Below, one piece after another: positions 3,023-44,396 of a stretch of 44,509 nucleotides of DNA. Position 1 is the stretch's first letter; each line of letters starts with the position of its first letter. The DNA is from Deltaproteobacteria bacterium. GTDB lineage: Bacteria > Desulfobacterota > Syntrophia > Syntrophales > UBA2210. Below the pieces are notes generated by a model. That model was given only the letters and a program-made list of their open reading frames with translations. It had not been told where the DNA came from and ran no database searches. A program made the position numbers and the translations under genes. Location: contig JAPLJO010000085.1 in assembly GCA_026388515.1 (NCBI GenBank), positions 1 through 44,509 on the forward strand. Direction: 5' to 3'.

Positions 3023-4385
<1,363 letters not shown>

Positions 4386-33066: not shown

Positions 33067-33837
33067 TTATCGTCCGATAATGTAACGGTAGGGGTCCACT
33101 TCCTCGCGGAGAATCCTCAGCTCCTCGTCGGAAGGCGCCCTGGTTTCCGAAATTTTCTGAGCCCGCAGAAGCTCAAAGCCGCAGTTGTCGTGGACGTCCT
33201 TCTCAACATATCCGGGATTGATCGAAACGATTCTCATCCTCTTCGAGGAGGGCTCGAAATCCATGACCGCCATATTCGTGATGATCTTGTATGGTCCCGC
33301 CCCGGGGGCAAGTCCCGATCTGGTCCTCGAATCACCACCGGAAATCCACCCAGGCGTCGTCACATAACTGCATTTCTCGACAAACCGCTTGCTGTCCTGC
33401 GGCGTCATTACCATCATCCGCCACGCGAAGGAGCCAAAATCATTGGCGCCGCCGCTTCCGGGAAGTCTCACCTTCGGTTTCTGGTGATCGGCGCCGATGC
33501 GGGTTGAGTTGAGGTTGCCGTACATGTCAATCTGCGCACCGCCGAGAAACGTGTAATCCAGCATCCCCCTGCAGGCCGTTTCCATGATCTCGCACATGCC
33601 GCTCGCCATGATTGCCTTCCAGGTGGTTCTCGAGTCGCCGACGGAAATGGGCATTTCGGGAAGAATGGGAGAGACGCCGCCGGCCTCGAACATGATAAGG
33701 AGATTGGGGGCGGCGGTCTTCTGGGCAAGCATGACCGCCGCGCAGGGCGCACCGGTTCCGACGCCCACGCTGGCCCCGTCTTCCAGTTCCCGCGACGCCA
33801 CACAGATCATGAGTTCCATTGTATTATATTCAGCCAT
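33067..33837 (-). CDS. Class I CoA-transferase, beta subunit (GctB-like)
   Basis: A 256-residue protein close to glutaconate CoA-transferase subunit B. GVGTGAPCAAVMLA, LIMFEAGGVSP, LGGAQIDMYGNLNSTRIG, LPGSGGAND and YVTTPGWISGG follow in the family order. Glu51 in FEAGG aligns with the catalytic glutamate of GctB (Glu54 in Acidaminococcus, from memory), so true CoA transfer is expected rather than the hydrolase activity of IpdAB-type relatives. Such enzymes activate carboxylic acids with acetyl-CoA or similar. It follows the alpha-subunit gene by 20 bp. Confidence 0.88.
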   Translation of the reverse strand: MAEYNTMELMICVASRELEDGASVGVGTGAPCAAVMLAQKTAAPNLLIMFEAGGVSPILPEMPISVGDSRTTWKAIMASGMCEIMETACRGMLDYTFLGGAQIDMYGNLNSTRIGADHQKPKVRLPGSGGANDFGSFAWRMMVMTPQDSKRFVEKCSYVTTPGWISGGDSRTRSGLAPGAGPYKIITNMAVMDFEPSSKRMRIVSINPGYVEKDVHDNCGFELLRAQKISETRAPSDEELRILREEVDPYRYIIGR

Positions 33838-33857: not shown

Positions 33858-34850
33858 CTACCGCTTGTTGTTGAGAAGCATGAGCTCTTTCTGTCTCAAC
33901 TGCTGCATCTTCGCGAATCCGCCATTTACCTCGAGGTAGTCGAAGTGGTCATTGCAGTTATATATATGAGTATCGAGAAACTTCTTGAACTCTTCCGGTT
34001 CCCGCTCCGCCTTGAGCCATTCCCTGAGATGCTCTTCATCGGAGAAATACTCGCTGTACATGTTTCCGGGATAACTGCCGTAGGGCACCTCACAGACGGC
34101 ATCAACGAGATAGAACGGAATGACCGTGTAGGACGGCTCGGAACGGATGACATCATTGTGCACGATGCGCTCCGCTGTGATTATCAGCCGCTTGGAGGCC
34201 CGCGCAAGATCAAGGTCCGATACCGTGATACCCCGCACCCTGCAGTTGCCGTATATATCGGCCTCATGGACGTGGATGGCGGATATATCGGGGAACAGGG
34301 CGGGCATCGCCACATACCTGGTTCCCGTATAGGGGCACTGTATCACCTTGGCACCGCTGAATTTGAATGTGTCGGTGCCCATGATGTTCCTCGTGGGAAC
34401 GAAAGATACGCCCATGGCCGCCGCTTTCAGGCGGGCGGATAAGCTGTAATTGCTCCACTCGCATACCTCGACGTCACCGCTTTCCATATAGCGGCGGGCG
34501 TTCGGTGAGAGACCCCGCGCCTCGAGGCCGATGATGTACGCAATGTCACAGCGGTTGAATATCTTGCCGGCGCATAAAATCTGAAAATCGTGAGTCGAGG
34601 TATGACCGGCAAAACCCATGTTCTTCCTGCCCTGTCGCACCAGTTCGTGGCATACGGCAGTGGGAATTCTGTTCGCTCCAAACCCGCCGATGGCAAGATA
34701 GTCCCCGTCATGGGCAAATTTCCCGACTGCGTCTTTCACGGTCATGAGCTTCGATTCAAGCTTTCGTGACTTGGTTCTGAAAAAGGCTCGCGCCTTATCA
34801 GCATCGGGGTCCGTGAAAAGCCGTCCAACACCCTGTTCTAACACATCCAC
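33858..34850 (-). CDS. Class I CoA-transferase, alpha subunit (GctA-like)
   Basis: A 330-residue partner of the gene above. After a leader of about 35 residues comes LMTVKDAVGKFAHDGDYLAI, then IGGFGANRIP, AMPALFPDISAIHVHEAD and ITAERIV, all as in glutaconate CoA-transferase subunit A. The likely start is GTG 34850, nine bases after AAAGGAGG. A 68-bp tandem duplication covers this ribosome binding site and the first codons, leaving an upstream false start (see the repeat entry). Probable substrate: an organic acid activated for beta-oxidation-like breakdown; not identifiable further. Confidence 0.88.
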   Translation of the reverse strand: MDVLEQGVGRLFTDPDADKARAFFRTKSRKLESKLMTVKDAVGKFAHDGDYLAIGGFGANRIPTAVCHELVRQGRKNMGFAGHTSTHDFQILCAGKIFNRCDIAYIIGLEARGLSPNARRYMESGDVEVCEWSNYSLSARLKAAAMGVSFVPTRNIMGTDTFKFSGAKVIQCPYTGTRYVAMPALFPDISAIHVHEADIYGNCRVRGITVSDLDLARASKRLIITAERIVHNDVIRSEPSYTVIPFYLVDAVCEVPYGSYPGNMYSEYFSDEEHLREWLKAEREPEEFKKFLDTHIYNCNDHFDYLEVNGGFAKMQQLRQKELMLLNNKR

Positions 34851-35679: not shown

Positions 35680-35897
35680 CCGACCACCTCCACGGCAGTA
35701 TTCAATGTCCCTATTCTCGCCAAAAAATCACCGGGTGTAAACTCTTTTTGTATATCCGAAGGACACGACGGCGGGATACATTATCAGCCATGCGGATGCT
35801 TCATGCATTGTCTGCGGAATTGTTCGTTTGACTCACGGTAGGCACTGTGATAGGCACCACGCGACACGCCATTGGGCGGAAGTTTCCGGAGCGACAC

Positions 35898-37559
35898 ATG
35901 ATCCTCGGTATTGATGTGGGGGGAACCCACACTGATGCGGTTCTGCTTGAACGATTCAAAGTGGTGCGCAAGAAAAAGGTGATCACCGATCCGGAAAATC
36001 TCCTCCATTCACTCCTTGAGGTCACCGAAAAAGTCCTCGGCGATATTTCTCCCGGCAACCTGAAGCGGGTGGTCCTCTCTACGACCATGTCCACCAACGC
36101 CATCGTACAGGGCAGGATAAGCCCCGTGGGCATGATACTGGCGAGCGGACCCGGGCTGCCTCCGTCGCTTCTCAGAATAAATGAACACAGCCATATCGTC
36201 TCCGGCTACGTTAATCACCGCGGCGAAGAAGTGGCGGCGATAGACGCGGGAGAAATCGCACACATCGTCCGCACCCTCCGGGATGAGGGAATTGATCATG
36301 TGGGTATCGTGGGAAAATTTTCGACGCGCGATCCCAAAATAGAGCTCGATATCGAGCGATTGGTACGCAGCCGCTTTACACATGTATCCCTGGGCCATCA
36401 GATGTCGGGAAATCTCAACTTCCCCCGGCGCATCGCCACCACCTACCTGAACGCCGCCATCTGGGAAACTTACCACACCTTCATCAGGAGCATCACCCAG
36501 TTCGTCGCACAGTTCGACGCCCATATCCCGGTCTACATTCTGAAGGCGGACGGCGGCACAATTGAAATCGGGCAGTCAACGGCCTGTCCCGTGCAGACCA
36601 TACTCTCCGGTCCCGCCGCCAGCATCATGGGCATACTGAGTCTCGTCGACTGTGTCGAAGACGCCGTCGCGCTCGATATCGGTGGCACCACAACGGACAT
36701 TGCAATCTTCGCCGGCGGTGTCCCCCTTCTTGAACCGCTGGGAATCACCATTCAGGGACATAAAACGCTGGTACGGGGGCTCCGAACGCGATCCATCGGC
36801 ATCGGCGGAGACAGCCGGGTCGCCTGCGTGAACGGACGCCTCTCGGTGGGACCCATGCGGGAAGGTCCCGCGGCGTCCCTCGGAGGACCATGCCCGACAC
36901 CGACCGACGCCATGGTCGTACTGGGGCTCGCTTCCATCGGAAACCGGGAACGGGCCGTGCGGGCGATAGAAGACATCGCGTCGGCACTGTCACGCCCCCT
37001 CGAGGAAACGGCGCACCTGATCATGGAGCACGCCTCACGGGAAATCATCACCCATGTAAGGGCCATGATCGAGGATATCAACAACAAACCCGTGTACACG
37101 GTTCATGAACTCCTCGAAGGTGCAAAAATCGAACCGAAGGCGATGTATGTGGTCGGCGGACCATCGGGAGCCATGGCGCCACGCCTCGGGGAACTCTTCG
37201 AAGTCCCCGTGCACATACCCGGGGACGCCGAAGTCGCCAATGCCATAGGGGCGGCCCTTGCCCGGACGACCACTGAACTGACAGTGCTCGCCGATACTGA
37301 AAAGGGAAGACTGACCATCGTCGAAGAGGGTATACAGCAACGGGTGGAGCGCAGCTTTACCCGTGACGACGCAGTGACTCTCTGCAGGGAAAAGCTGCGG
37401 GCGCGGGTGCTCGCCATGGGCGCATGGGAAGACGATATTGAAATAGAAATCACGGAAGACCAGTCCTTTACCATGGTCCGGAATTCCTGTATCGCGGGCA
37501 GGAACATCCGCATCAAGGGACAGGTCAAACCGGGCCTTATACATGGGGCGCGGAGGTAG
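35898..37559 (+). CDS. Hydantoinase/oxoprolinase subunit A-like (HyuA) ATPase-fold protein
   Basis: A 553-residue ASKHA-fold protein. MILGIDVGGTHTDAVLLE is the first phosphate loop; LSTTMSTNAIVQG, ILSGPAASIMG and ALDIGGTTTDIAIF follow, and YVVGGPSGAMAPRLGELF lies near the adenosine site. Relatives hydrolyse hydantoins or 5-oxoproline or carboxylate ketones with ATP, normally with a HyuB partner. No HyuB is present; instead the next gene, seven bases on, is a deacetylase-fold enzyme. ATG 35898 has GGAG upstream; the longer frame from 35847 adds a non-family leader. Confidence 0.85.
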   Translation: MILGIDVGGTHTDAVLLERFKVVRKKKVITDPENLLHSLLEVTEKVLGDISPGNLKRVVLSTTMSTNAIVQGRISPVGMILASGPGLPPSLLRINEHSHIVSGYVNHRGEEVAAIDAGEIAHIVRTLRDEGIDHVGIVGKFSTRDPKIELDIERLVRSRFTHVSLGHQMSGNLNFPRRIATTYLNAAIWETYHTFIRSITQFVAQFDAHIPVYILKADGGTIEIGQSTACPVQTILSGPAASIMGILSLVDCVEDAVALDIGGTTTDIAIFAGGVPLLEPLGITIQGHKTLVRGLRTRSIGIGGDSRVACVNGRLSVGPMREGPAASLGGPCPTPTDAMVVLGLASIGNRERAVRAIEDIASALSRPLEETAHLIMEHASREIITHVRAMIEDINNKPVYTVHELLEGAKIEPKAMYVVGGPSGAMAPRLGELFEVPVHIPGDAEVANAIGAALARTTTELTVLADTEKGRLTIVEEGIQQRVERSFTRDDAVTLCREKLRARVLAMGAWEDDIEIEITEDQSFTMVRNSCIAGRNIRIKGQVKPGLIHGARR

Positions 37560-37566
37560 CGACGGC

Positions 37567-38874
37567 ATGACGGCGAAAAAAAAGACGGGGCTCATTTTCT
37601 TTCCCGCCTTTGACTGGGCGATTTCGCCCACCCATCCGGAACGGGAAGAACGGCTTCTCTACACCCAGGACCAGGTCATGGAGGAAGGCCTCTTCGATTT
37701 CGATAACGTCATCGAGTTCAAGCCGGGACTCGCCACAATCCGCGACATTGACCGCGTACATATCTGCGTTCCCGACGCACAACACGTGATTACCGAATCG
37801 CACCTGATTTCCGCGGGAGGCGCCATTACCGCCGCCGACAAAGTCCTCACAAAAGAAGTGGACAACGCCTTTGCCCTCGTCCGGCCGCCGGGCCATCATG
37901 CCATGAAAGTGGTGCACGGCGCCCGCGGTTTCTGCAACATCAATATTGAAGCCATCATGGTGGAGTACATACGGACACACTTCGGCCACAAGAGAATTGC
38001 CATCGTGGACACCGACTGCCACCACGGCGACGGCACACAGGATATTTTCTGGCACGATCCGGACACGCTCTATATATCGGTACACCAGGACGGCCGCACG
38101 CTCTACCCCGGTTCCGGATTCCCCGATGAGTTCGGCGGCCCCAATGCCTACGGGTACACAATCAACATTCCCCTTCCCCCCCACACCTCGGAGGAAGGAT
38201 TTCTCTATGTGCTCGACAGTCTGATTCTCCCCATCCTTGCCGACTTCAAGCCTGACCTCATCATCAATTCCGCCGGCCAGGACAACCATTATACCGATCC
38301 CATCACCAATATGAATTTCACCGCCCAGGGATACGCGACGCTGAACGACAGGCTCGCACCTGATATTGCCGTGCTCGAAGGAGGTTACTCCATCGAAAGC
38401 GCCCTTCCCTACATCAACGTGGGAATCATACTGGCAATGGCGGGAATCGATTACGGAAACGTGAGAGAGCCCGACTACGACCCGGCATCGATCCGGCAAT
38501 CAGCGGAGACCACCCGCTATATCCGGCAGCTGTCGTCTGAAATCCACGATCTCTGGAAATCGCGGGACGAAGAGCGGGCCAAGCTCATTGAAAACGCCGG
38601 CTATCTGAGGCGGCAGCGGAGCATTTACTACGACACGGACGGCATCAACGAGGAACAGGCGGAGACTATTCGTGTATGCAGTGATTGCGGCGGAGTCTTC
38701 ACCATTGATTCAAAAGCCGATACGGGGCGCAGGATTTTCGCGGTGATCGTTCCGGGACGGAGCTGCCCGAAGTGCAGAACAAAAGGAGAGCAGTTCTTTG
38801 AGACGACAGAGTCCGGAAAATATGATTACGTCTATTTTCAGGACCGTGACAAAGATATCTTCATCAGGAAATGA
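37567..38874 (+). CDS. Histone-deacetylase-fold amidohydrolase with C-terminal zinc ribbon
   Basis: A 435-residue arginase/deacetylase-fold protein. The catalytic histidine pair is in RPPGHH (H110, H111). Zinc ligands are D150 and H152 in DTDCHHGDG and D239 in GQDNHYTDP; the transition-state tyrosine is Y274 in LEGGY. So all key residues are kept. Bacterial relatives remove acyl groups from polyamines or lysines. After residue 365 comes an extra zinc ribbon, CSDCGG (C371, C374) and CPKC (C400, C403), unusual for the family. It starts seven bases after the HyuA-like gene; GGAGGT lies at that gene's end. Confidence 0.88.
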   Translation: MTAKKKTGLIFFPAFDWAISPTHPEREERLLYTQDQVMEEGLFDFDNVIEFKPGLATIRDIDRVHICVPDAQHVITESHLISAGGAITAADKVLTKEVDNAFALVRPPGHHAMKVVHGARGFCNINIEAIMVEYIRTHFGHKRIAIVDTDCHHGDGTQDIFWHDPDTLYISVHQDGRTLYPGSGFPDEFGGPNAYGYTINIPLPPHTSEEGFLYVLDSLILPILADFKPDLIINSAGQDNHYTDPITNMNFTAQGYATLNDRLAPDIAVLEGGYSIESALPYINVGIILAMAGIDYGNVREPDYDPASIRQSAETTRYIRQLSSEIHDLWKSRDEERAKLIENAGYLRRQRSIYYDTDGINEEQAETIRVCSDCGGVFTIDSKADTGRRIFAVIVPGRSCPKCRTKGEQFFETTESGKYDYVYFQDRDKDIFIRK

Positions 38875-39036: not shown

Positions 39037-40200
39037 TTAACGGAAGAGTTCCCGCGCAACGATGAGCCGCCTGATTTCGGACGTTCCCGCGCCGATTTCA
39101 TAGAGCTTCGCATCACGCCACAGTTTCTGAATCGGATACTCCAGGCAGTAGCCATATCCCCCGTGAATCTGGATGCCGTCACAGGCAACTTTCGTCGCCG
39201 CCTCAGCCGTGAAGAGTATCGCCGCCGCCGCTACCTTGTCGAGTTCAGTGCCCTTTCCTCCCTTCTTGCCCTCAGGTCCGTCGGCGAAACGGGCCGCCCG
39301 GTAGACGAGCCCCCGCGAGGCCTCGACAAGACAGTACATATCGGCGATCTTCTGCTGGATCATCTGGAAATCCTTGATAGGCCGTCCGAACTGCTCGCGC
39401 TCTTTGGCATACTGAATCGAGTATTCCAGCGCCTGCTCGGCGATACCCAGCGAGCTGCCGGCCAGCACAATGCGCTCATAGGCAAGGCCGGAGGTGACGA
39501 TATGCACGCCCCTGTTCTCTTCGAGGAGCAGGTTCTCCGCCGGCACTTCCACGTCTTCAAAACTCAGTTCGCATGTCGGCGATCCTCGCATTCCGCACTT
39601 CTTCAGCTTTTTGGAAACGGTCACGCCGGGAGAATCAGCCTGAACGATGAATGCGCTGATCCCGTGCGGTCCCTTTTCAGGGGCGGTTTTTGCGTAGACG
39701 AGAAGCGTATGGGCAATGGCACCGTTGGTGACGAACATCTTGGTGCCGTTCAGGATGTAGGCGCCTTCCTTCTTCTTTGCCGTGGTCCGCATTCCACCGA
39801 GCGCGTCGGAACCCGCGTTCGGCTCGGTAAGACAGAGTGCGCCCACGTGTTCGCCTGTGCACATGGAAGGCAGGTATTTGCGCTTCTGTGCATCGTTGCC
39901 GTTTTTGTGGATGTTATTGGCGCAGAGATTCGAATGGGCGCCGTAGGTCATGCCGAGTGCCGGCGAAAACCGGCTCAACTGCTCCACCGCCAGCACCTGC
40001 ATCATGATTCCCTGACCGGCACCGCCGTATTGTTCATCAATCGTGATTCCCAGCATGCCAAGATCCCCGAGCTTTTTGAAGAAGTCATCGGGAAGCCAGT
40101 CTTCCTCGTCCACCTTTTCCTGAATCGGAGCGATTTCGGCAAGCGCCCACCTGTACATCGTTTCCGCCAGCATCCGTTCTTCGTTGTTGAGTCCCCGCAT
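39037..40200 (-). CDS. Acyl-CoA dehydrogenase, isovaleryl-CoA type (copy 1)
   Basis: A flavoprotein of about 387 residues that oxidises an acyl-CoA to the 2,3-enoyl-CoA, passing electrons to ETF. CLTEPNAGSDA and MFVTNGAIA are flavin/substrate motifs; the end reads YEIGAGTSEIRRLIVAREL. The GAGTSE form, in place of YEGT, is that of isovaleryl-CoA dehydrogenase, where the base is a glutamate on another helix; LAYERIVLAG supplies it here. ATG 40200 is seven bases after GGAG; an ATG two codons earlier lies too close. It diverges from the XRE-cupin regulator. Confidence 0.92.
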   Translation of the reverse strand: MRGLNNEERMLAETMYRWALAEIAPIQEKVDEEDWLPDDFFKKLGDLGMLGITIDEQYGGAGQGIMMQVLAVEQLSRFSPALGMTYGAHSNLCANNIHKNGNDAQKRKYLPSMCTGEHVGALCLTEPNAGSDALGGMRTTAKKKEGAYILNGTKMFVTNGAIAHTLLVYAKTAPEKGPHGISAFIVQADSPGVTVSKKLKKCGMRGSPTCELSFEDVEVPAENLLLEENRGVHIVTSGLAYERIVLAGSSLGIAEQALEYSIQYAKEREQFGRPIKDFQMIQQKIADMYCLVEASRGLVYRAARFADGPEGKKGGKGTELDKVAAAAILFTAEAATKVACDGIQIHGGYGYCLEYPIQKLWRDAKLYEIGAGTSEIRRLIVARELFR

Positions 40201-40257
40201 ACACATTCTCCTTACCAGTAAAATAAAGACGGTATTACCAGTTCATACCTTTATGAC

Positions 40258-40962: not shown

Positions 40963-42399
40963 ATGATTAAATTCAGTGAACGTCAACTGAGAGTCCCCAA
41001 GCTTGCACGGCCGGTGTATCTGGTGACGGCGGGACAGTCGAAGTTTGACCGGGCCATGCCGGACAAACGGACGGAGGAGCTCTGTATCGATGCCTTCACA
41101 CAGGCGGCAGAACTCATCAACAAGACACCTGCCGAATTGAAGCGTTACATTCACACTTGTTACTACGGTCACTTCGCGGATCATTTCGGCGATCAGCTTC
41201 TCGGCGAAGCGGTCATACACGACCGTCTCGGTCTTGACCCACTTGGAAATGCCGGCATCAAGACGGGTGGCGCTACCGGGGGTTCGACGCTTTGGGAAGG
41301 AATGAAAGCCGTGGCCTCAGGGTATTCCGACTGCGTGCTGGCAATGGGGTGGGAACGTATGGATGAAGTTCCCACTGATGAGGGTAACTTCCTCATCTCC
41401 TGCGCCGCCGACAAGGACTGGGAAAGCCCCCTCGGCCATGTCTATACCGGATATTACGCCGTCATGGCCCAGAAATACTGGAAGGTATTCGGCAAGGAGC
41501 AACCGTCGTTCAGGAGAACGTTGGCGGAAATCGCCGTCAAGCACCGTGGCTACGCCCGCTTCAACCCCTATGCACAGGGACCCATGAAAATCACCGTGGA
41601 AGACGTATTGAATTCCCCGGTTGTCGCCTACCCGCTGCGCGCGTTGGATTGCTGCCTGATGAGCGTCGGCGCCGCCTGCGCCATACTCTGCGACGAAAAA
41701 ACGGCTGTTGAGCTGACCAAAGGCACAAAGAATAAACCGCTTCGGATCTGGGTTGCCGCCGGGTCGCACACGTTGCGTCCTGCCGACAGACTGCATATGG
41801 AAATCCCGCTGCTTCCCAATGAGACAGCGAAGCAGTATAAGGACCTGGGCAAGCGTTTCCCCGGAGGAGAGCGTTATCCCGGTTTCACCGGCTTCCTCGG
41901 CGCCCGGATGGCCGCATGGTACGGCTATCGCATGGCGGGCATCGTCGATCCGATGGAAGATCTTGATGTGATAGAATTACATGACGCATTTACCATCAGC
42001 GATGTCCAGTCATATGAAGATGTCGGCCTCCGTCCTTACGGCGAAGGCAGAGATTACGTAGAATCCGGCGACTGCTATCATAAGAACCCCCATACCGGCA
42101 AACCGGGTCGGCTCCCCTCGAACTTGTCGGGAGGTCTCATCGGATGTTTGCTTGCCGTGGGTGCGACGGGTATCATGCAGACTTTCGAAAGCGCCACTCA
42201 TTTCTGGAACCGGTGGGCCGAAATCCACGGCGATCCAAAGATATGGAAGAAATTCAACAGGCAAAAACCGGCCGACTGGACCAACCTGCAAGTCAAGGGT
42301 GCGAAGAGGGCCCTGGCAATCAGCCACGCCGGCGTCGGCTCCCATGTGACGGCAACAATCCTGATGGATCCCGACCATCTTCTCAAAGAAGACGCCTAA
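40963..42399 (+). CDS. Thiolase-fold protein lacking the nucleophilic cysteine (SCP2/Ltp2-like)
   Basis: A 478-residue SCP2-type thiolase-fold protein. The loop that normally reads ACASGG is TGGATGGSTL at residues 101-110, placing Gly103 where the acyl-accepting cysteine should be. ELHDAFT (His340) is kept, but the late GHP-x-GATG motif is CLLAVGATG (residues 395-403), so its histidine is lost too. Known Cys-less thiolase-fold enzymes such as Ltp2 act as retro-aldolases with a DUF35 partner; BbsAB is a thiolase-DUF35 pair of anaerobic toluene breakdown. The next gene is such a partner. AAAGGAG precedes the ATG. Confidence 0.85.
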   Translation: MIKFSERQLRVPKLARPVYLVTAGQSKFDRAMPDKRTEELCIDAFTQAAELINKTPAELKRYIHTCYYGHFADHFGDQLLGEAVIHDRLGLDPLGNAGIKTGGATGGSTLWEGMKAVASGYSDCVLAMGWERMDEVPTDEGNFLISCAADKDWESPLGHVYTGYYAVMAQKYWKVFGKEQPSFRRTLAEIAVKHRGYARFNPYAQGPMKITVEDVLNSPVVAYPLRALDCCLMSVGAACAILCDEKTAVELTKGTKNKPLRIWVAAGSHTLRPADRLHMEIPLLPNETAKQYKDLGKRFPGGERYPGFTGFLGARMAAWYGYRMAGIVDPMEDLDVIELHDAFTISDVQSYEDVGLRPYGEGRDYVESGDCYHKNPHTGKPGRLPSNLSGGLIGCLLAVGATGIMQTFESATHFWNRWAEIHGDPKIWKKFNRQKPADWTNLQVKGAKRALAISHAGVGSHVTATILMDPDHLLKEDA

Positions 42400-42415
42400 A
42401 AGGAGGAATAAAACT

Positions 42416-43006
42416 ATGAGTATGTTCGGACAGGTATATGTGAAAAACAATCAGTATAAAATCAAGGGAAACTTTCACCACATGACGCCGAATCAGCCGA
42501 TTCGCAACGCCGATGATGGATGGAAGTTAATGGGAGTCACGAATCCACGCGACATGACCTACATGCATTCGTACGGCGGTGAAGCAATCTTCTTCGAATC
42601 GCTGGGCAAGGGAAAACTCATGGCCACGCGCTGTGACAACCGGAAATGCGATATGAAGGGAACCATCTACCAGCCTTTCAGAATCCACTGCATGAGCTGC
42701 CTCGGGAAAAATACCGTCATCGACATGACGAAGCTCGCAAAGAAATCTGCAAAAATTCACACCTTCATGGTCTGCGAACGGTCGGGCGCCTTCAGTATTC
42801 TCGACAAACCTATCAAATTCATCAATATCGAGTTCGACGGGGTTCCTACGATACTGATGAGCTACCTCTCTATCGGTGATCCCAAAATCGGGATGAAAGT
42901 GATTCCAATATTCAGAACCACGAATCCCACCTATACGATCCTCGACCTCTCATGGGTACCGGTGGGAACAAAAGAGACCAACCTGCCGGAAGGTTTCAGT
43001 TTCTAA
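42416..43006 (+). CDS. DUF35-type zinc-ribbon/OB-fold partner of the thiolase-like protein
   Basis: A 196-residue protein with a rubredoxin-like zinc ribbon (C73 and C78 in RCDNRKCD, C92 and C95 in IHCMSC) followed by an OB-like barrel (KIHTFMVCER, INIEFDGVPTILMSYLS). DUF35 proteins bind thiolase-fold enzymes and help hold the CoA substrate. An N-terminal extension of about 65 residues precedes the ribbon, longer than in many relatives. It begins 16 bp after the thiolase gene with AAAGGAGG, so the two are made together. Confidence is high for the fold, moderate for the partnership. Confidence 0.85.
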   Translation: MSMFGQVYVKNNQYKIKGNFHHMTPNQPIRNADDGWKLMGVTNPRDMTYMHSYGGEAIFFESLGKGKLMATRCDNRKCDMKGTIYQPFRIHCMSCLGKNTVIDMTKLAKKSAKIHTFMVCERSGAFSILDKPIKFINIEFDGVPTILMSYLSIGDPKIGMKVIPIFRTTNPTYTILDLSWVPVGTKETNLPEGFSF

Positions 43007-43158: not shown

Positions 43159-44289
43159 TTACCTGAGATAATGGGCGATGATGAGCTTCTGCACCTCCGT
43201 GGTTCCTGCACCGATGGGAAACACCTTCGCGTCGCGCATATAGCGCTCAACGGGATATTCCTTCATATAGCCGTATCCGCCGAAAATATGAACGGCCCAG
43301 CCGGTAACCCTCACCGCCATCTCGCAGGCATACATCTTGGACTGCGCCGCGAGCATCCGCGCCTCTTTATAATTTTTTTTGTCCCAGCAGGTCAGCCCCT
43401 TGTAGGTGAGTAGCTTCGCCGCCTCGAGCTCTACCGACATGGTGGCAAGCTTGTCCTGAATCATTTCGAAATTGAAAATGGGTTGCCCGAACTGTTCCCG
43501 TTCCTTGGAGTATTTGAGCGCCGCTTCAAAGGCGGCCTGGGCGATGCCGATGGCGAGGCAGCTCCACATGAACCGTTCCACATCGAGCCCGGAAAACATC
43601 TGCTTGAGTCCCTGCCCCTCGACGCCGCCAAGGAGATTCTCCTCCGGCACCCGGCAGTCCTGCAGGATTATCTCTCCCGTCGGTGACGAGCGGAGCCCCA
43701 TTTTTGAGAGCTTTTTCCCCGCCTCGTAGCCCGGAAAATTCTTCTCGACGATAAACGTACAGAGACCGCCCGGCCCCTGCGCATAGATGAGGGCAATATC
43801 CGCGATGGGGGCGTTCGAAATAAATGTCTTCGTTCCGTTCAGGATGTACTCGTTCCCGACTTTCTTCGCCGTAGTTCTGAGCGAAAGCGCGTCGGAGCCT
43901 GCACCCGGTTCCGTGAGCCCCATGCAGCCCTTTTTCTCGCCGCTCGCGAGTGCGGGGAGGTACGTCTTCCTCTGATATTCCGTCGCATTCCGGGCAATGT
44001 TGTTGGCACAGAGAAGTCCGTGGGCGCCGTAGGTTGTCGCCACACCGGCATCCACCTTCCCCAGTTCCTCTCCCATGAGACCGAAGGAAAGATAGTCCGT
44101 GAGCATTCCGCCGTATTCCACCGGGACGCCCATGCCGAGAAATCCCAGCGGCTTTGACTTTTCCCAGAGGGCCTCGATGAATTTTTCTTCACGATCCATT
44201 TCTTCCACGTAGGGCGCGATTTCCTTTTCGGCGAATCGCCGGACCGTTTCCTTCAGCATTCGTTGTTCTTCAGTGAAATCAAAATCCAT
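43159..44289 (-). CDS. Acyl-CoA dehydrogenase, isovaleryl-CoA-like type (copy 2)
   Basis: A flavoprotein of about 376 residues that begins MDFDFTEEQRMLKETVRRFA. GLTEPGAGSDALS and TFISNAPIA are flavin/substrate motifs; the end is FPIGAGTTEVQKLIIAH. As in copy 1 the usual YEGT glutamate is absent, and LDVERFMWSC offers the alternative base. It is not a close duplicate of copy 1, so the two probably act on different intermediates. ATG 44289 has AAGGAG six bases upstream; the longer open frame to 44388 crosses the promoter and is rejected. Confidence 0.92.
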   Translation of the reverse strand: MDFDFTEEQRMLKETVRRFAEKEIAPYVEEMDREEKFIEALWEKSKPLGFLGMGVPVEYGGMLTDYLSFGLMGEELGKVDAGVATTYGAHGLLCANNIARNATEYQRKTYLPALASGEKKGCMGLTEPGAGSDALSLRTTAKKVGNEYILNGTKTFISNAPIADIALIYAQGPGGLCTFIVEKNFPGYEAGKKLSKMGLRSSPTGEIILQDCRVPEENLLGGVEGQGLKQMFSGLDVERFMWSCLAIGIAQAAFEAALKYSKEREQFGQPIFNFEMIQDKLATMSVELEAAKLLTYKGLTCWDKKNYKEARMLAAQSKMYACEMAVRVTGWAVHIFGGYGYMKEYPVERYMRDAKVFPIGAGTTEVQKLIIAHYLR

Positions 44290-44359
44290 GTCGTACTCCT
44301 TTATATATAGTGCGTGTGCGTAGAGCCCCTCACCCCGCATGAGGTCCATCGCACGGCCG

Positions 44360-44396
44360 TGCATAGTGAAAACTAATTGACTTGTCAATCAATAAA
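44360..44396 (-). promoter_or_regulatory. Palindromic operator/promoter upstream of the second dehydrogenase
   Basis: The 21-bp stretch 44376-44396 is identical to 35120-35140 and holds TTGAC-TT-GTCAA. On the minus strand it forms a perfect -35 TTGACA (44383-44388) with TATGCA (44360-44365) 17 bases on. A bound repressor would block this promoter. The ATG lies about 70 bp downstream. Confidence 0.7.

Follow-up and report, generated by a model that had tools for sequence, protein, structure and literature searches.

The window analysed here, a stretch of DNA of 44,509 nucleotides, contains two adjacent genes at 40963-43006 that encode a thiolase-fold protein and a DUF35-type partner (Table 1). 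Both open reading frames are intact and lie where the first-pass annotation had placed them, separated by a 16-bp gap, and the ORFs, the fold models and the adjacency of the two genes agree with the pair that it described. The thiolase-like gene is present in a single copy in the source genome.

Table 1. Features of the pair and of its surroundings in the window
Feature	Position	Strand	Basis or remark
CoA-transferase subunit pair	33067-33837 and 33858-34850	-	PF01144
Acyl-CoA dehydrogenase, closest to isovaleryl-CoA dehydrogenase	39037..40206	-	structure-sequence matches
XRE-family regulator with cupin domain, 180 aa	40372..40914	+	HTH_3 and Cupin_2
Thiolase-fold protein without nucleophilic Cys, 478 aa (P0001)	40963..42399	+	ORF
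TGGATGGSTL, residues 101-110	41263..41292	+	alignments with solved thiolases
Gly103 codon, at nucleophilic-Cys position	41269-41271	+	alignments with solved thiolases
HDAF motif, residues 340-343	41980..41991	+	invariant in family alignment
TTG CTT (Leu396-Leu397), GHP histidine position	42148..42153	+	Met-His in 82/82 relatives
HAGVGSH, residues 455-461, including His455	42325..42345	+	invariant in 83/83
DUF35-type zinc-ribbon/OB-fold partner, 196 aa (P0002)	42416..43006	+	ORF, adjacency, model
Zinc-ribbon cysteines 73, 78, 92 and 95 of the partner	42632..42700	+	alignment
Second acyl-CoA dehydrogenase	43159..44388	-	true start ~33 codons inside ORF

The thiolase-like protein carries a Thiolase_C_1 domain that scores above the Pfam cut-off, and its AlphaFold model (pLDDT 85.9, pTM 0.90), taken together with the PDB matches, predicts a thiolase fold. 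The best match is 6esq_A (Z 48.2, rmsd 2.0 over 388 residues); further matches are BbsB (Z 44.9), SCP2 thiolase (44.0), Ltp2 (41.2), Sal (39.3) and TbSLP with malonyl-CoA bound, so that the model resembles all three of the proteins (SCP2 thiolase, BbsB and Ltp2) with which a structural comparison had been suggested. At the sequence level, the protein matches NCBIfam NF004982 (PRK06365), an uncharacterised thiolase domain-containing protein, across the entire model (E 7.6e-207), but its score of 687.5 bits is 7.5 bits below the curated cut-off of 695. Two siblings, from genomes G001 and G005, exceed that cut-off (697.6 and 698.3 bits), and the model also catches a subfamily of only 38% identity at about 695 bits; we therefore treat the window protein as an outlying relative of PRK06365. 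The BbsAB equivalog model NF053628 is far from being reached (107.9 bits versus a cut-off of 750).

Recognition of the partner as a DUF35 protein, also anticipated by the first-pass annotation, depends more on structure than on sequence. A Pfam sequence search of the 196-aa protein gave no match, and its sequence similarity to the DUF35 structure 3irb reached only E=0.003. Its AlphaFold model (pLDDT 85.5), however, matches the DUF35 chains 3irb (E 5e-7) and ChsH2 (6ok1; E 5e-5) as well as that of 6esq, and predicts the zinc ribbon and OB fold of DUF35 (PF01796-type) proteins, together with ~50 extra residues at the N-terminus. The four zinc-ribbon cysteines are invariant in a 26-row alignment. 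Moreover, the two genes are direct neighbours in 80 of 82 other loci (both exceptions lie on short contigs), mostly with a gap of 15 to 40 bp.

In alignments with solved thiolases, the nucleophilic cysteine falls on Gly103 and the GHP histidine on Leu397, so that the window protein lacks both residues expected of an SCP2-type or classical thiolase. Position 103 is glycine in every member of our family alignment (83 members, i.e., the window protein and 82 close relatives), and it remains so in two deeper subfamilies of the same phylum (51-55% and 38% identity), which also retain His340, the GHP histidine and the histidine of the conserved SHAG motif. Another cysteine at the nucleophile position, which according to the first-pass annotation would have counted against its reading, can thus be dismissed, given that glycine is invariant there. 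HDAF is likewise invariant across the family, and the C-terminal motif, SHAGVGSH, contains no cysteine. HDAF is not in itself a mark of Cys-less enzymes, since it also occurs in BbsB and in the Pyrococcus thiolase 7yvy, both of which have the Cys region typical of active thiolases. The earlier alignment, made by eye, was accurate for the cysteine, the GHP position and HDAF.

The loss of the GHP histidine that was also reported holds for the window but is no family trait: position 397 is histidine in 82 of 82 relatives and leucine in the window alone, and position 396 is methionine in the relatives and leucine in the window. Only three columns that are invariant elsewhere are broken in the window, namely 396, 397 and I160V. 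The codons ATG CAT of the relatives read TTG CTT in the window; in their surroundings, an example relative has TGCATGCATGCC and the window has TGTTTGCTTGCC, the adjacent changes M396L and H397L being part of four base differences within 12 bases. The source assembly is fragmented (175 contigs). The window copy is the odd one out within its own family, and M396L/H397L is possibly an assembly error or possibly a true active-site change; the copy may have lost its activity, be altered, or be misassembled at these two codons.

A single scan of genome contigs returned 165 relatives, and 80 loci were retained. Identity is 77-92% across Desulfobacterota, Spirochaetes, Krumholzibacteria, Latescibacteria, Planctomycetes, Actinobacteria, Marinimicrobia and Lokiarchaea, and although the proteins of Desulfobacterota and Lokiarchaea are about 80% identical, no reaction has been described for any of them; our literature search on the family in anaerobic or isovalerate metabolism found nothing. 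Purifying selection on the thiolase-like gene is extreme (dN/dS, or omega, ~0.03) and synonymous sites approach saturation (pS 0.62-0.88), which means that the high identity reflects constraint; recent horizontal transfer as its cause is ruled out on the same grounds. Older transfers are possible, since the tree mixes the phyla somewhat (23 label changes versus a minimum of 9). Within the phylum, 33 of 395 genomes encode the protein or a member of a deeper subfamily. What had been presented as a notable find in an anaerobe is therefore no rarity of one organism, given the number of relatives from one scan and the further Cys-less sets in the source genome itself (see below). The pair is a real, widely conserved and uncharacterised lineage near PRK06365, a model without an assigned function.

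Acyl-CoA dehydrogenases and a CoA-transferase lie near the pair in the window, as first noted. The dehydrogenase at 39037..40206 matches 4o5m (E 5e-117) and human isovaleryl-CoA dehydrogenase (IVD; 1ivh, E 1e-113), and it is 51% identical to the IVD that adjoins the pair in Desulfopila. Across the loci, an acyl-CoA dehydrogenase lies within 3 kb of the pair in 43, the XRE-cupin regulator in 29, an acetoacetate-CoA ligase in 17 (and beyond 3 kb in none) and other AMP-ligases in 13; these counts drop sharply with distance and so serve as an internal control. The regulator is immediately upstream in 29 of the 65 loci with enough flank and is retained beside a 51%-identical subfamily (L211). In Desulfopila-type operons, regulator and pair are joined by an AMP-ligase, an acetoacetate-CoA ligase and an IVD, the last being 76% identical to the IVD of the classical leucine cluster of the same organism; one neighbouring ligase clears the acetoacetate-CoA ligase cut-off widely (956.8 versus 639 bits). 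In Smithella, as in the window, a CoA-transferase pair stands in for the ligase; in Smithella it comes directly after the module (clusters 18/19; L075, L081). The neighbourhood does not, however, force a single substrate, because the type of dehydrogenase varies by lineage (SCAD-like in 31 genes and in most loci other than the window, IVD-like in 9) and because the pair stands nearly alone in Marinimicrobia. The exact substrate may differ among lineages, or the dehydrogenase may not be diagnostic.

Several individual neighbourhoods deserve mention in their own right. Desulfopila aestuarii has two IVD loci (L052, L136): its classical leucine cluster encodes a carboxylase and HMG-CoA lyase without an acetoacetate-CoA ligase, and the operon of the pair contains that ligase. 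Branched-chain aminotransferase-like and 2-oxoacid oxidoreductase-like genes were recognised by eye at L070. In Lokiarchaea (L092, 9259-11655; L093, 2748-5144; L098, 9362-11758), the pair is followed by a glycyl radical enzyme of the PFL2/glycerol dehydratase type (752.6 bits versus a cut-off of 678) and then by an acyl-CoA dehydrogenase, and in a member of the Phycisphaerae (L068) a distant glycyl radical enzyme is encoded some 3.4 kb upstream. In Lokiarchaea and in one spirochaete, the neighbours of the pair include genes of the BKACE type (the 3-keto-5-aminohexanoate cleavage enzyme family; L094, 9265-10164; L096, 9255-10166; L066, ~3368-4225), and cobalamin-dependent acyl-CoA mutase-like genes, again recognised by eye, are found near deeper subfamilies (L205, 11777-13450; L215, 5524-7532; L201, 10575-11045).

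The first-pass annotation proposed an acyl-CoA lyase or aldolase by analogy with Ltp2-ChsH2. Like that pair and Sal-Shy, ours combines a thiolase fold with a DUF35 partner, and acyl-enzyme chemistry is not expected of any of the three. Ltp2 uses Tyr294 of YDHF as base and Tyr344 as acid; in Sal, these roles fall to Tyr302 and Cys304, respectively, and Gln352 occupies the position of Ltp2 Tyr344 (PMC12329534). Comparison with the motifs in that paper puts His340 of HDAF on Ltp2 Tyr294 and Sal Tyr302. Six thiolases of the source genome have a spacing of 50 between HDxF and GHP, and the same spacing separates Tyr294 from Tyr344 in Ltp2 and Tyr302 from Gln352 in Sal, which places the Ltp2 and Sal residues on His340 and the GHP position; in our family, a short insertion ahead of the glycines lengthens the spacing to 57 (340 to 397). 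Judged by motif spacing, Ltp2 Tyr344 would thus correspond to the GHP position of the family, and His455 probably lies near the second, C-terminal catalytic cysteine position of classical thiolases. The catalytic tyrosine of YDHF/YDCY is absent from the family, where HDAF is invariant instead, and so is the second Ltp2/Sal residue: the positions of Tyr344 and Cys304 hold Leu397 and Ala342 in the window, and histidine and alanine in the relatives. By this residue test the pair is not an aldolase of the Ltp2/Sal type. In addition, its DUF35 protein stands alone and is not fused to a MaoC hydratase, and whereas Ltp2 and Sal are steroid side-chain aldolases, we saw no steroid genes with the pair. 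Equivalence to Ltp2-ChsH2 is accordingly not supported, although a retro-aldolase or related C-C lyase is still the most likely kind of enzyme.

Two other known systems are close in architecture. The acetoacetyl-CoA thiolase of 6esq, from the archaeal HMG-CoA synthase complex, shares with our protein the closest fold, a DUF35 partner and the HDCF/HDAF region, but it has the nucleophilic cysteine where ours has glycine, and no HMG-CoA synthase was seen beside the pair. The benzoylsuccinyl-CoA thiolase BbsAB likewise shares the fold, a DUF35 partner (BbsA) and the ELHDAF motif, but BbsB retains the cysteine.

From the observed fold, invariant residues, partner, neighbourhood and selection, we infer a reaction, roles for individual residues and a type of substrate. 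Our tentative preference is for a heteromeric CoA-thioester C-C lyase of the aldolase type acting in short or branched acyl-CoA breakdown. An acyl-CoA dehydrogenase and a hydratase encoded elsewhere would supply a beta-hydroxyacyl-CoA, which the thiolase-fold subunit would bind and cleave, releasing acetyl-CoA or propionyl-CoA together with a ketone or an aldehyde. Cleavage would proceed without an acyl-enzyme, at least at the usual place, because Gly103 leaves no nucleophile there; since every family member has this Cys-to-Gly replacement, thiolysis by a ping-pong mechanism would not be expected. The Cys-less lyase would presumably use His340, His397 and His455, of which His340 and His397, at the Ltp2 tyrosine positions, may act as base and acid and hold the enolate oxygen. 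The DUF35 subunit would stabilise the active site, as in ChsH2-Ltp2, and the pathway served would likely be the degradation of short-chain or methyl-branched (isovaleryl-type) acyl-CoA. A His-based retro-aldol reaction on a beta-hydroxyacyl-CoA best fits the combination of a Cys-less thiolase fold, DUF35 and acyl-CoA dehydrogenase. The absence of both aldolase tyrosine motifs, and that of the GHP histidine from the window copy, count against this proposal; if it is right, the window copy is presumably impaired or altered, since Leu397 replaces histidine.

Among the alternatives, we considered whether the pair could be a non-orthologous HMG-CoA lyase, replacing the TIM-barrel enzyme and splitting HMG-CoA into acetoacetate and acetyl-CoA as a step of leucine/isovalerate catabolism. 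The occurrence of IVD and acetoacetate-CoA ligase in one operon with the pair in Desulfopila relatives is consistent with this, as is the absence of HMG-CoA lyase (NF004283) from 36 of 45 pair genomes, at least one of which was counted twice. The idea was suggested by the pattern in 41 relatives. There, the three genomes with the pair lack the lyase and encode a close homologue of methylcrotonyl-CoA carboxylase beta (its identity to D. aestuarii LiuB is 55%, versus ~32% for other carboxyltransferases), and the only other carboxylase-bearing genome (G024) has the lyase without the pair. Strong as it was there, the displacement failed over 395 genomes of the phylum: carboxylase occurs in 4 of 33 pair genomes versus 42 of 395, which is no association, the pair is not linked to a missing lyase either (the lyase is present in 8 of 33 pair genomes versus 106 of 395), and of the 20 genomes that encode the close carboxylase, 11 lack both pair and lyase. 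Most pair genomes also lack methylcrotonyl-CoA carboxylase. We retain this role as a rival only, and a distinctly unlikely one. Desulfococcus multivorans degrades isovalerate via a carboxylase and HmgL. A route that bypasses carboxylation, in which 3-hydroxyisovaleryl-CoA is split to acetone and acetyl-CoA, would suit the majority of pair genomes, which lack that carboxylase, and the IVD-type dehydrogenases nearby, and its substrate, a tertiary beta-hydroxyacyl-CoA, is of the kind cleaved by Ltp2. Acetone carboxylase gamma (PF08882) occurs in just 6 of 50 pair genomes, however, so that the acetone would have to be excreted or otherwise used, and the acetoacetate-CoA ligase is left unexplained; given the rarity of PF08882, we judge this route weak and, on balance, unlikely.

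The remaining alternatives concern the chemistry of the site itself. Loss of the cysteine with retention of histidines, as seen in the family, is the pattern of decarboxylating ketosynthase-like domains, and the pair might accordingly decarboxylate a malonyl-CoA-like substrate, as Cys-replaced ketosynthase domains do. The fold match to malonyl-CoA-bound TbSLP, which slowly decarboxylates malonyl-CoA (PMC12329534), points in the same direction, but the module has no recurrent gene for a carboxylase or for malonyl-CoA formation, and we consider this quite improbable. Decidedly unlikely, too, is a noncatalytic role, in which a thiolase pseudo-enzyme would scaffold or regulate another enzyme via DUF35, as might be imagined from 6esq, where thiolase, DUF35 and HMG-CoA synthase form one complex, and from a window copy without the GHP histidine whose gene is still under selection. 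The active-site histidines are otherwise invariant over 82 sequences and the deeper subfamilies; together with an omega of ~0.03 and nearly saturated synonymous sites, this speaks for a catalytic function rather than decay. That the pair is an ordinary thiolase with a different nucleophile is suggested by its closest folds, which are thiolases, but it is highly improbable with glycine at the nucleophile position of every member and no cysteine in SHAGVGSH.

If the pair is indeed a lyase, it would represent a second catalytic solution (histidine for tyrosine) among the few known Cys-less thiolase-fold aldolases, and it would explain a step of anaerobic acyl-CoA breakdown in sediments that is now annotated as "thiolase." If it is not, many genomes annotate as a thiolase a protein that is unable to act as one. 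A broader, albeit speculative and unlikely, possibility is that the DUF35-dependent CoA-ester lyases with a Gly/His/His/His site form a new class, found in Lokiarchaea and in many phyla of anaerobic bacteria, which would split branched-chain (isovaleryl-type) acyl-CoA without oxygen by a route that needs no carboxylase or no lyase.

Elsewhere in the window, the gene at 37543-38874 encodes a histone-deacetylase-fold protein with a Cys-rich (zinc-ribbon-like) C-terminal extension; it overlaps the end of a lone Hydantoinase_A gene (35847-37559) that has no adjoining Hydantoinase_B partner. The 2.7-Mb source genome contains 26 Thiolase_C_1 matches, and tandem sets of additional Cys-less thiolase-like proteins occur within it at L171 (15406-18759), L174 (1551-4350), L173 (3778-6582), L175 (6256-9635) and L172 (5565-7934). 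Each set comprises two such proteins, one with a TGGTTG, TAGATG or TCGSTG motif and one with a shortened loop, and most sets are accompanied by DUF35 genes.
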